A program made the position numbers and the translations under genes. The notes under the pieces were generated by a model. The model had not been told where the DNA came from, ran no database searches, and saw only the letters and a program-made list of their open reading frames with translations. A stretch of DNA of 64,000 bases from Rhodoflexus caldus (GTDB lineage: Bacteria > Bacteroidota > Bacteroidia > Cytophagales > Thermoflexibacteraceae), in assembly GCF_021206925.1 (NCBI RefSeq), contig NZ_JAJPRF010000004.1:248001-312000 (forward strand), given 5' to 3'. This document shows, piece by piece, positions 26,286 to 31,097 of the stretch; within the stretch, counting starts at the first letter, position 1; each line of letters begins with the position of its first letter.

Positions 26286-26357
26286 TGCGATTTTATTTCA
26301 CTTTTACAGCAAATTTAGGTATCTTAGCACACTTTATCACCTTTCATCATACGGTTG

Positions 26358-28544
26358 ATGTTGTTGTTGCGCCTTCTGCCTTTTATTTTTTGCTTTCTCG
26401 GCCTTTGGCCGCTTGCGGCAGCTCAGCAAGAGATACTGTTGCACGGCAAGGTTGTGTTTGATGACGGACGACCTGCTGTAAATATTGAATTTCAGGTAGA
26501 TAACTTACGTCCTTTCACTACCGACAGAAAAGGCCAATTTGGCAGCATGATTCCTGCCTCGTTCAACAGCCCGAAACAGGTACGCGTAAACAATGACAAA
26601 CTTTCCGTAGTCAATTGGTTTTACGATACGGAACAGCAACTGCTGCAAATCACCCTTCGGGCATCGCAGCAAAACCTCGTCGGCAGGGTTATTACACGCA
26701 CCGGCGACCCTATTAACAATGCCAATGTTGCCGTTATCGTACAAGGCACGGAAGTAGGCAGCGGCATCAGCGATGAAAACGGCTATTTCGCGTTTTTCAT
26801 ACCCGCCGACATCAAACTTTCGCCACAGGCTACCGTCAAAGTCAATCAGTCAGTGCTTAGCACCGATGATGTGAAAATATCTTTAAACGACCGCAACAAC
26901 TACTTTCTGCATTTGTATTACAAGCAGCCCGCCAATGCGGAGTTGTATGCAGTTGTTGTTTATGACCATCAGAAACGACTGCAAAACGAGGCGCGCGTGA
27001 TTTACAATCGGCAGGAATTTGCAGCCGACAGCAAAGGTGTTATTTACGTGCCTTTATCGGGGTTGCAGGATATGCCGAAACTCAAAGTAGCAGGCGGTGT
27101 TGTTACTGCACGCAATTTCAGCACCCCGCTCAAACGCATCAGCCTCTACACGGCACCTGCTGCCCCTGCCAAAGCGGCAACAGACACCGGGCAGGCATAC
27201 ATGCGCTATTTTGACGAAATTACGCGGTCGCTGGAAGGCAATCGTGCAGAAATTGAAAAATACAACACCCTCATCACCCATGAGATGGAAAAACTGACCA
27301 AGCGTTTTTCCGCCGATAACAACATCCACCCCGAAGAAGCCCGCCGCTATTTGGCACGCATGGAAATTTTGGAGCAATTGCTGCTAAAAAACCACAGCCT
27401 GATGACAGCAGGCAACGAACAGACCCGCAGCGCTTTAATGCGTCTGAAAGATGCCATTGCCGCAAGGGACTCGCTTTCCCAAATCACGCATCAACAGATA
27501 GCCGAACTTGCCGATAAAAATGCCGAACTTGACCGCGCCAACAAGCGCATAGAAAGCGATACGCAGTTTAAACTCATGATTGCCGCCGGATTAATCACCG
27601 CTTTTGTGGGGATGAGTTTGGCCATTGGCTACCTCTACAAACGCACCGTTCGCCAAAAGGAGCAATTGGAAGTTACCAATACCGAACTGCGCACCACACT
27701 GGCAGCACTTAAAAAAACACAGGCACAATTAGTACAGCAAGACCGCATGACCTCACTGGGACAAATGGCGGCAGGCATTGCGCATGAAATCAACAACCCT
27801 ATCAATTTTATTTATGCAGGAGCCGATTCGCTGCGAAGAAATTTTATTGATTTAAAACAACTGCTGACCATTTACCGCAATCCGGCACTGCACAACGGCA
27901 GCAAGCAAAGTGCTATTGAACAATGGGAGAAAGTCCACAACGCCGACATGTTGCTCAACGAAAGCGAAGAACTTGTTGCAAGCCTCAAACGAGGGGCTAC
28001 CCGTACCTTTGAAATTGTACAGGGATTGCGCAGCTTCGCCCGTATAGATGAAGAAAATCTCATCAAACTAACCAACATTGAAGAAAGTTTAGACAATGTG
28101 CTTATGCTGTTGAGCGGGCAATTTGCCAGCCGTATCCAAATAGAAAAATACTACGGAAACATTCCGAAGATAGAGTGCTACCCTGCCCGATTGAATCAGG
28201 TGTTTCTCAATTTATTGATTAACGCCATAGAATCCATTGACAATCAGGGCATTATATTTATTACCACTACTTACCCCGCCAAAGGACGGCACGTACCGTC
28301 CGACATGAAGGATGCCGTAGCAATCACCATTGCCGATACAGGCCGCGGTATTTCCCAGAAACATCTGCCCCATATTTTTGACCCCTTTTTTACTACCAAA
28401 GAAGTTGGCGATGGCGTAGGCCTCGGGCTTTCCATCGCATTAGGCATCGTAAAAGAACACGGCGGCAATATCGTCGCCAACAGCCGCGAAGGAAAAGGCA
28501 GCCAATTTCTCATTATTTTACCGCGTCAATTAGCCCATACCTGA
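26358..28544 (+). CDS. Membrane histidine kinase with carboxypeptidase-regulatory-like sensor region
   Basis: The 728-residue protein has a signal peptide (MLLLRLLPFIFCFLGLWPLA, ending AAAQ), two beta-sandwich modules similar to carboxypeptidase regulatory domains (about 25-190, with GKVVFDDGRPAVNIEF and GRVITRTGDPINNANVAV), a further periplasmic region and coiled coil (about 290-400), one transmembrane helix (about 405-427), and a cytoplasmic kinase core. The phospho-acceptor is H476 in MAAGIAHEINNPINF; the ATPase part shows LNLLINAIESID, IADTGRGIS and GVGLGLSIALGIVKEHGG. It should autophosphorylate and pass phosphate to the response regulator starting one base after its stop. The carbohydrate-like sensor fold suggests an extracytoplasmic ligand, not identified. 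A TTG one codon earlier is possible. Confidence 0.9.
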   Translation: MLLLRLLPFIFCFLGLWPLAAAQQEILLHGKVVFDDGRPAVNIEFQVDNLRPFTTDRKGQFGSMIPASFNSPKQVRVNNDKLSVVNWFYDTEQQLLQITLRASQQNLVGRVITRTGDPINNANVAVIVQGTEVGSGISDENGYFAFFIPADIKLSPQATVKVNQSVLSTDDVKISLNDRNNYFLHLYYKQPANAELYAVVVYDHQKRLQNEARVIYNRQEFAADSKGVIYVPLSGLQDMPKLKVAGGVVTARNFSTPLKRISLYTAPAAPAKAATDTGQAYMRYFDEITRSLEGNRAEIEKYNTLITHEMEKLTKRFSADNNIHPEEARRYLARMEILEQLLLKNHSLMTAGNEQTRSALMRLKDAIAARDSLSQITHQQIAELADKNAELDRANKRIESDTQFKLMIAAGLITAFVGMSLAIGYLYKRTVRQKEQLEVTNTELRTTLAALKKTQAQLVQQDRMTSLGQMAAGIAHEINNPINFIYAGADSLRRNFIDLKQLLTIYRNPALHNGSKQSAIEQWEKVHNADMLLNESEELVASLKRGATRTFEIVQGLRSFARIDEENLIKLTNIEESLDNVLMLLSGQFASRIQIEKYYGNIPKIECYPARLNQVFLNLLINAIESIDNQGIIFITTTYPAKGRHVPSDMKDAVAITIADTGRGISQKHLPHIFDPFFTTKEVGDGVGLGLSIALGIVKEHGGNIVANSREGKGSQFLIILPRQLAHT

Positions 28545-28545
28545 T

Positions 28546-29751
28546 ATGATGCTTCCGCAAAGGCAGGCAAAAATCCTGTACGTAGATGATGAGATTGATA
28601 ATCTGACCATCTTTAAAGCAGCTTTTCGCAGATTATACGATATTCAAACCGCCCTTTCGGGCAAAGAAGCGCTGCAAATGATGCGCAATCAGCCGCCTGA
28701 GCACCCCTTTGACGTGCTGATTACCGACCAACGCATGCCCGAAATGACAGGCGTGGAACTCTTGGAGATAGCTGCCGCAGAGTTTCCGCAAACCGTGCGC
28801 ATGATGCTCACAGGCTACTCCGACATGGAAGCCATCATCCGCGCCATCAACAAGGGCAATATTTTTCGCTATTTGACCAAACCTTGGGAACTTGACGAGC
28901 TTCGCCAAGCCATAGATGAAGCCTTCATTATGGCAAGGCAACGCAATCACTTAGCGACCGAAACTGCCGATACCAATGCTCCGCAAACGGCAGAATGGGG
29001 CATTTTAATGCAACTGCAACAAATCATACAACCGACCGAAGAAGCCGTCAAAGCCGTATGCAAAGATGCTTTTATCTTTCGCCCGCAGGCCGGACAACCC
29101 GAGAAATCAATGATGGCTTTTTACCATTTGGCAGAAAAAAAACAAAGCCTTGTCATCACTGCCGTCTGCCTGACCGAAGACCTGCCCAAAGGCGCTATTT
29201 TTAGCCTGATAATCAAACACTTGACAGACAGCGCCGTGCTCAATGGCATCACCCTGCCCGCCTGCTTGCTGGCCGAATTGCAACTCAACTTTTGCACAGC
29301 CTCCCGCATTATGCCGCATGTAACCGACCTTTCCATAGGCATCACGCTCATTAACCATCAGGCCAACCGATTGATATTTGCCGGAACTTGCCAAAACCTG
29401 ATAGTTATTACGGCAGGCGAAACACAAGTTTTGCAAGGTATGCCCCAACCATTGGGTAAAAGCAATAATGCCTTCAATGCGGATGATTTCCAACAACACG
29501 AGCAGCCGTTCAGCCCTAATCGGACAGTCTTTTATATGGCTACCACGGGCATGGCAGAGCATCTGTGCGGCTTCAAAAACAGGGCTTTTGCCGGGCAATA
29601 TCTCGTAGAAATTCTGGAAGAATTGCATAATTTGCCCGCTGTACGCCAAAAACAACTCATCCGTTCGCTGTGGGACGAGTGGCAGGCGCAACCAACCGCT
29701 GCCGCCAACACCCCCGCGACAGACCCTCTGATAATCGGCATAAGCATTTAA
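28546..29751 (+). CDS. Response regulator with degenerate (inactive) SpoIIE/PP2C-like output domain
   Basis: The 401-residue protein has a complete receiver domain (residues 8-130: acidic pair D14/D15, phospho-acceptor D61 in ITDQRMPEM, T89, K112 in YLTKPW) and a C-terminal domain (about 170-380) that follows the SpoIIE phosphatase strand by strand but lacks the metal-binding residues. Against the active enzyme at 38807-42226, SGDFYWF has become MMAFYHL (Asp to A191), VVDCTGHGVPG has become AVCLTEDLPKG (Asp to C208), and FTDGYAD has become ATTGMAE (Asp to T334). It is therefore predicted to bind a partner without dephosphorylating it. It lies 1 base after the kinase gene and 2 bases before the LRR gene. 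Confidence 0.85.
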   Translation: MMLPQRQAKILYVDDEIDNLTIFKAAFRRLYDIQTALSGKEALQMMRNQPPEHPFDVLITDQRMPEMTGVELLEIAAAEFPQTVRMMLTGYSDMEAIIRAINKGNIFRYLTKPWELDELRQAIDEAFIMARQRNHLATETADTNAPQTAEWGILMQLQQIIQPTEEAVKAVCKDAFIFRPQAGQPEKSMMAFYHLAEKKQSLVITAVCLTEDLPKGAIFSLIIKHLTDSAVLNGITLPACLLAELQLNFCTASRIMPHVTDLSIGITLINHQANRLIFAGTCQNLIVITAGETQVLQGMPQPLGKSNNAFNADDFQQHEQPFSPNRTVFYMATTGMAEHLCGFKNRAFAGQYLVEILEELHNLPAVRQKQLIRSLWDEWQAQPTAAANTPATDPLIIGISI

Positions 29752-29753
29752 CA

Positions 29754-31097
29754 ATGAAGCCCTTACTACCACTAACGCTCTTGTTTCTACTCTCAGCGGG
29801 CAGCCTTTCGGCACAAATCCCAACCTTTTTGCTTCGCCGTCATACAGCATCCGCAGAGGCTGCCCACTCTACCCGCAAAGACACTATCTTGTATCTTGAT
29901 TTATCGGGACGCAACCTGACTGCTATTCCCGAATGGGTATATGCCTGCACCAATCTGCGCACGCTGGATTTGAGCCGCAATCCGATTGCCGAACTGCCGC
30001 GCCGCCTCAATCGCCTGAAAAAACTCCATAAAATCACCTGCGACGGCACGCCGATACAACAGCAACGCTTTGCACCCGACAGTTTAATGACCGAAAGGCT
30101 CAAAAGCATGTCGGCTGCCCGACAGCGTCAGGTACTGGACAGCTTCGCCACGCTGAACAGCGCACAGACTGAAGCTGTTGAGCAGCAACTATTAAAAATC
30201 GGCAAGTTGCGCCACGTTCGCACGCTGGTTATTAACAACCGCTACTTAACTGAAATGCCGCGTGTGTGGAAAATCCGCAAGTTAGATACGCTCAATATCA
30301 GCCGCAACCGCCTCACTTCGCTGCCGCACCAAATGAAGAAACTAAAGCATCTGAGTGCATTTTATGCCGACTACAACCGCCTCACACATGATATTACATG
30401 GTATCCGCTGCCGCAATTAAAAAAACTAAGCCTGATTTCCAATCGGTTGGAAATATTGCCGCCCGCAATCGGGCAATACCGCTCGCTGATATCCATCAAT
30501 GTGGCCGGTAATAAAATTGCACAGGTAGCCCCCGAAACAGCCCGCTTGCAGCAGTTGCGGCAAATCATTCTGTACGGTAATCAACTTACTGCCATCCCCG
30601 ACTGCATTTTTGATTTGCAGGCATTGGAAGAATTGGATGTGTACATGAATCAGATAACGGAAGTCCCCGAAAAAATCAGCCACCTGAAAAATCTGACACA
30701 TTTGTACCTGTCTTTCAACCGAATTGAAAAACTGCCCGAAAGTATTGCCCAACTGCAACACTTAAAAGGTCTTTATGCGCACCGCAACCGCCTGAGTCAA
30801 TTGAGTGACAGCTACGCGGCGCTGCAAAATCTGGAAGTGCTGCGCGTACAGGAAAACCGTTTGAGCATTTTCCCCAACTTCATCCTGCAACTACCCAACA
30901 TTCGCGAAGTGAACGTGGCACAAAACCAACTGTCCGACCTGCCGATAGAAAAATTGATGGATTTGCCGAAACTTTCGTTTTTTCATGCCAACAGCAACCC
31001 GTTTATGCCCGAATTTTTAGAAAGTCGGCTTGTAAAAGAATTCCTGCAAAAAGGCGAAAACCGAAAACTCAACTACGTAATCACGGGCAGGGATTAA
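29754..31097 (+). CDS. Exported leucine-rich-repeat protein
   Basis: The product (447 residues from ATG 29754) has a signal peptide (MKPLLPLTLLFLLSAGSLSA, cleaved before Q) and about a dozen leucine-rich repeats of the 23-residue bacterial type, such as LRTLDLSRNPIAELPRRLN, LDTLNISRNRLTSLPHQM and LTHLYLSFNRIEKLPESI. A shorter, less regular segment (about 100-150) splits the first repeats from the rest. LRR solenoids bind proteins or glycans; this one should be periplasmic or surface-exposed. Its position as third gene, 2 bases after the response regulator, suggests it works with the kinase's sensor region. The last 4 bases overlap the convergent RIC gene. An upstream ATG at 29670 is rejected because it would hide the signal peptide. 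Confidence 0.87.
   Translation: MKPLLPLTLLFLLSAGSLSAQIPTFLLRRHTASAEAAHSTRKDTILYLDLSGRNLTAIPEWVYACTNLRTLDLSRNPIAELPRRLNRLKKLHKITCDGTPIQQQRFAPDSLMTERLKSMSAARQRQVLDSFATLNSAQTEAVEQQLLKIGKLRHVRTLVINNRYLTEMPRVWKIRKLDTLNISRNRLTSLPHQMKKLKHLSAFYADYNRLTHDITWYPLPQLKKLSLISNRLEILPPAIGQYRSLISINVAGNKIAQVAPETARLQQLRQIILYGNQLTAIPDCIFDLQALEELDVYMNQITEVPEKISHLKNLTHLYLSFNRIEKLPESIAQLQHLKGLYAHRNRLSQLSDSYAALQNLEVLRVQENRLSIFPNFILQLPNIREVNVAQNQLSDLPIEKLMDLPKLSFFHANSNPFMPEFLESRLVKEFLQKGENRKLNYVITGRD

Follow-up and report, generated by a model that had tools for sequence, protein, structure and literature searches.

Three tightly packed genes lie on the forward strand of the window, the whole stretch of 64,000 nucleotides of Rhodoflexus caldus that was analysed. 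The first (26355..28544, 729 codons, probable start ATG 26358) encodes a sensor histidine kinase composed of a signal peptide, a CarboxypepD_reg-like extracytoplasmic region, a transmembrane segment, and HisKA and HATPase domains (PF13620, PF00512, PF02518), whose H, N, G1, F and G2 boxes are all intact. The second (28546..29751, 401 amino acids) encodes a response regulator with a predicted pseudo-phosphatase output, and its ATG start codon is separated from the end of the kinase gene by 1 bp. The third (29754..31097) codes for a leucine-rich-repeat (LRR) protein with a signal peptide (PF13855, E 1e-40); its start codon lies within 3 bp of the stop codon of the regulator gene. The three genes, about 1,600 codons read without interruption, probably form a single operon. 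Judging by the sequence, the kinase is likely the partner of the regulator.

Receiver and linker of the response regulator

The receiver domain (amino acids 9-126, 28570..28923) matches Pfam PF00072 over residues 10-123 (E 2e-19) and has all the residues that define a two-component response regulator: the acidic pair D14 and D15, the phospho-acceptor D61, the switch T89 and K112. An earlier note on this DNA had listed D61, T89 and K112; all are present, and the acidic pair can be added. Nearly all of the residues that are invariant across eight relatives are kept in the receiver (35 of 36). The linker that follows, together with the alpha-0 helix (amino acids 127-171, 28924..29058), was delimited by alignment with the same relatives; it retains 5 of 20 invariant residues, the other 15 being lost, and the coiled-coil linker of the relatives is about 20-50 residues longer. 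With these residues and most of the coiled coil gone, the signal may no longer be passed on by the usual route.

A SpoIIE/PP2C domain without its metal centre

The rest of the protein (amino acids 172-401, 29059..29751) is a degenerate SpoIIE/PP2C domain. When it is aligned by MAFFT with the 23 intact SpoIIE domains found elsewhere in this genome (G000), all four acidic metal positions prove to be replaced. The first Asp, of the GDF motif, is A191 (codon GCT, 29116..29118); the second, of the DCTGHG motif, is C208 (TGC, 29167..29169); the third, of the SDG motif, is T334 (ACG, 29545..29547); and the fourth, the first D of the VDD motif, is T392 (ACA, 29719..29721), the motif reading ATD. The earlier note had named the first three replacements and an altered VDCTGHGVPG loop. 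Both observations hold: T392 completes the set, and the DCTGHGVPG loop reads CLTEDLPKG, with a Gly of DCTGHG replaced by E211. An active SpoIIE/PP2C phosphatase has four metal-coordinating Asp residues, and the window regulator has none of them; by motif, it falls outside the active SpoIIE phosphatases. Since at least two base changes separate an Asp codon from each of the codons for C208, T334 and T392, the loss is not a sequencing slip. The open frame, these multi-step changes and the substitutions shared with a sister species rule out a sequencing artefact or frameshift in the window.

The homology of the domain is best seen in sequence searches. Pfam SpoIIE (PF07228) gives no match above its gathering cut-off to the whole protein (28546-29748) or to the C-terminal half, presumably because the metal motifs weighed by the model are gone, and PHROGs gave no match for the query. 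A profile search of the C-terminal half, one of the checks proposed in the earlier note, matched the NCBIfam SiaA profile (E 5.5e-8), and a single-sequence phmmer search of the PDB retrieved the SiaA-PP2C crystal chain 6k4e (E 4e-6). The SpoIIE alignment previously placed at residues ~170-380 is borne out as homology but not in its end point, as it extends to the last strand at residue 401. Over this part, 18 of the 47 residues invariant in the eight relatives are kept; the ones retained mostly define the fold (F192, Y193, G216, A217, G280, Y330, W379 and G398), and those of the active site are lost.

Structure prediction, also proposed earlier, gave a PP2C-like fold. Given an alignment of relatives, AlphaFold produced a model with a pLDDT of 83; Foldseek placed E. 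coli and P. aeruginosa RssB at the top of its PDB matches, followed by SiaA-PP2C, and VIA-align put SiaA-PP2C (Z 27.8; 241 residues at 2.5 A) ahead of the RssB chains. This confident model leans on an alignment of active homologues, and AF2 of the C-terminal part alone, run with no alignment, gave an uninformative pLDDT of 35; it is therefore mainly the sequence matches that carry the case for a PP2C domain. On homology over the domain and an alignment-assisted fold model, the output is assigned to the SpoIIE/PPM (PP2C) fold family.

Probable loss of catalysis and retention of the protein

The metal centre is intact in all 23 other SpoIIE domains of the genome. These domains score above the Pfam cut-off in a genome of 3.96 Mb, are mostly of the DCTGHG type and are carried by varied long or membrane proteins. 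The metal centre is also complete in receiver-SpoIIE regulators of Cytophagales (L026-L031, L033 and L036), and 27 of the best 28 loci from a search of 390 genomes of the order are intact at all four sites, L132 being ambiguous at the first. A set of receiver-SpoIIE proteins of 388-427 amino acids (L067-L076) was considered as possible degenerate relatives and rejected, their motifs being intact. Genus g27 has tandemly duplicated receiver-SpoIIE regulators whose linkers are short and whose motifs are intact (L067 1058-3453, L068 1156-3661). True orthologues are found in three genomes of g6, a genus of the same family (G008, G011 and G012), where a histidine kinase gene is followed by a receiver-SpoIIE gene of 435-438 codons with a complete metal centre; the orthologous kinases are 36-43% identical to that of the window, and two of the three have a CarboxypepD-like sensor region. 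The metal centre was therefore lost in the lineage of the window's genus. A plasmid search found nothing covering 80% of the query, and a contig search yielded only a fragment of a sister-species MAG.

In that sister species (G003, same genus, MAG contig CALHUI010000003), a remnant of the operon occupies the syntenic place (L054 2635-4550). Deletions have taken the greater part of the kinase and all of the receiver's phospho-acceptor portion, and have shortened the output by about 80 codons; a block is missing from the LRR gene, and the remnant contains two TAG codons and frameshifts. The joint decay of the three genes points to the LRR protein as part of one functional unit with the kinase and the regulator. 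In what survives, the A, C, T and T replacements are identical to those of the window. Metal loss thus predates the split of the two species, whose synonymous divergence (dS) is about 0.2, and, as the loss is older than the split, the protein was kept afterwards. As to whether other Cytophagales show the same losses, the answer is divided: relatives across the order are intact, whereas the sister species has all four substitutions.

What was retained has to be weighed against the possibility that the output is vestigial, only the receiver mattering, whether as a sink for phosphate or as a single-domain regulator for the kinase, and the phosphatase half being an unconstrained remnant. The uneven retention of invariant residues between receiver and SpoIIE part (Fisher p 6e-9) would be expected of such a remnant. 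So would the terminal branch on a fixed tree, where the SpoIIE part has accumulated 2.9 substitutions per site against 0.57 for the receiver; the resulting ratio, 5.0, is roughly double the ~2.6 of the relatives (sum over their terminal branches), although the receiver of the window regulator is itself somewhat fast-evolving. Unconstrained evolution is difficult to reconcile with a frame that is open to the last strand: in simulations of neutral divergence from 50% to 25% identity, about six stop codons arose and 0 of 300 runs stayed free of them, and at half that divergence 1.3% of runs did. It also fails to account for the survival of fold-defining residues next to the loss of active-site ones.

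Because pairwise dN/dS alone cannot separate constraint in the window from decay in the sister, amino-acid differences were polarised. Over the whole fragment, the sister branch received 15 of them and the window branch 4 (p 0.02), while a flanking control gene gave 10:8 to 11:7 with the nearest same-genus outgroup and 4:7 to 11:5 otherwise. The SpoIIE part alone gave 11:4 (p=0.12), which is not significant and leaves room for a vestigial output, and the small kinase fragment gave 2:2. The polarised result is suggestive of selection, not decisive. Overall, the protein has been retained after the apparent loss of catalysis, the dead domain itself has likely been under constraint since the species split, and we regard a vestigial output as credible, if doubtful. 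The earlier note would have taken intact homologues as a sign that this copy is only drifting; intact orthologues do exist, which goes part of the way towards that view, but simple drift is contradicted by the one-sided conservation, the open frame and the loss before the split.

Relaxed selection could alternatively bear on the whole operon, the gene being on its way out: the sister has lost it already, and here the break would be recent or still to come. The ruined sister operon would agree with this, as would its absence from the syntenic place in a second genome of the same genus, where the glycosyltransferase and ArsR neighbours are present, the lack of a strong match to the operon in a fourth same-genus genome, and a pairwise dN/dS between window and sister of 0.40 for the regulator against 0.04-0.11 for flanking genes. 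This explanation appears quite unlikely given the uninterrupted kinase, regulator and LRR codons of the window, the intact receiver and kinase motifs, and the retention of the protein after a metal loss that is older than the split. As the sister copy is a pseudogene, the function, if any, is dispensable, and the only intact copy known is that of the window.

The dead domain (29059-29751 of the window) scores higher against three membrane-anchored SpoIIE proteins, paralogues from its own genome, than it does against the orthologues defined by gene position, through either a domain swap or a long-branch effect. That the C-terminal half was acquired from such a paralogue (G000 C21, C5, C17) and then degenerated is very improbable: the paralogues are indeed its best matches (26-29%, 59-68 bits, against 24% and 34-44 bits for the orthologous regulators), but the branch is very long and the score gaps on it are slight, genus-level composition may contribute, and plain orthology agrees with both the gene order and the length.

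Proposed mechanism and known systems

The reading that we favour, and place just on the probable side, is that the SpoIIE/PP2C output of the regulator has turned into a non-catalytic, foldable and kinase-gated binding domain, by analogy with RssB, with a SiaC-type protein as the likeliest partner. The sensor kinase, whose motifs are intact, would phosphorylate D61, and phosphorylation would reposition the receiver, the short linker and the switch helices on the pseudo-phosphatase. This repositioning would gate the binding of a protein partner, in a mode resembling that of RssB, whose binding of sigma-S depends on phosphorylation. The partner would most likely be a phosphoprotein formerly served by the ancestral phosphatase; bound without being dephosphorylated, it would be protected or sequestered. 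The earlier suggestion of a pseudo-phosphatase under phosphorylation control is well supported by the intact receiver, the adjacent intact kinase and the dead metal centre, and is weakened by the intact orthologues and the non-significant selection signal of the SpoIIE part alone.

Within the window, no partner gene is linked to the regulator. SiaC-type proteins are our best guess, ahead of the classical STAS proteins thought of earlier, given the resemblance of the domain to SiaA and the four SiaB (DUF6272)/SiaC pairs encoded in the genome. The siaB and siaC genes do not adjoin the regulator gene as they do the phosphatase gene of a SiaABC module; the four pairs lie outside the window, at C7:122376-124018 (L008, L137, L138), C2:84463-85357, C2:430338-431143 and C11:64304-65113, one of them immediately adjoining a gene for a SpoIIE phosphatase. 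Together the pairs make up a multi-copy Sia-type system of threonine phosphorylation, on which the many SpoIIE proteins of this genome may act. Three stand-alone STAS proteins are also encoded, one beside an RsbW-like kinase gene; adjoining STAS and HATPase_c_2 genes form an RsbV/RsbW-like pair at C2:169601-170321 (L081, L086).

A bolder version of the favoured reading is that Bacteroidota independently turned an active receiver-SpoIIE phosphatase into a pseudo-phosphatase that is full-length, under the control of a kinase and able to protect or sequester a phosphoprotein of the SiaC type. RssB-like signalling would then have arisen a second time and be seen here at an early stage; taken as a whole, we consider this version rather unlikely. 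The combination of receiver and pseudo-PP2C domain did apparently arise here independently of RssB. Pseudo-enzymes have been proposed as stepping stones to new functions (PMC5468089). An independent case in another phylum, if real, would make the order of losses (metal centre, linker, operon) traceable, and active orthologues in a sister genus together with a dead-site sister species would allow a binding-only output to be compared with its active ancestor. A single intact copy and a decayed sister limit the interest of the finding.

Among known systems, the closest solved PP2C domain by sequence and fold is that of the membrane-anchored SiaA of P. aeruginosa (6k4e). SiaA is an active phosphatase with bound metals that forms a module with SiaB and SiaC; SiaC, its substrate, is structurally closest to anti-sigma-factor antagonists (PMC7647112). 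P. aeruginosa RssB (3f7a, 3eq2) shares with the window regulator the receiver-linker-PP2C arrangement and a full-length domain, but it is catalytically active and lies in an operon with the STAS gene rssC (PMC12143880), whereas the metal centre is dead here. The receiver-SpoIIE regulators of Cytophagales have the same architecture and, in g6, the same kinase-regulator gene pair; unlike the window regulator, they retain the whole metal centre, and their coiled-coil linker is longer.

E. coli RssB, a response regulator and ClpXP adaptor for sigma-S, is the textbook phosphatase domain turned adaptor. Like the window regulator, it combines a receiver with a PP2C-fold output devoid of active-site residues, following a lineage-specific loss from an active receiver-PP2C ancestor. 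RssB is not known to have an adjacent kinase gene, whereas the window regulator has one. In RssB, a PP2C-fold domain that lacks active-site residues is made by the receiver to bind in response to phosphorylation, and it is this pseudo-PP2C domain that binds sigma-S (PMC7226468, PMC12143880, PMC5468089). E. coli RssB is C-terminally truncated (PMC12143880), in contrast to the window regulator, which keeps the last strand and helices. The sequence identity is 17-19%, and nothing in the window regulator points to work as an adaptor for sigma-S or ClpXP. The NCBIfam RssB models score far below their cut-offs (NF007969, 31.8 bits vs 329; NF045505, 29.2 vs 700), mostly through the receiver. On present evidence, the window regulator, with its receiver and its PP2C-fold domain without catalytic residues, may work like RssB while not being, by score, a member of the RssB family.
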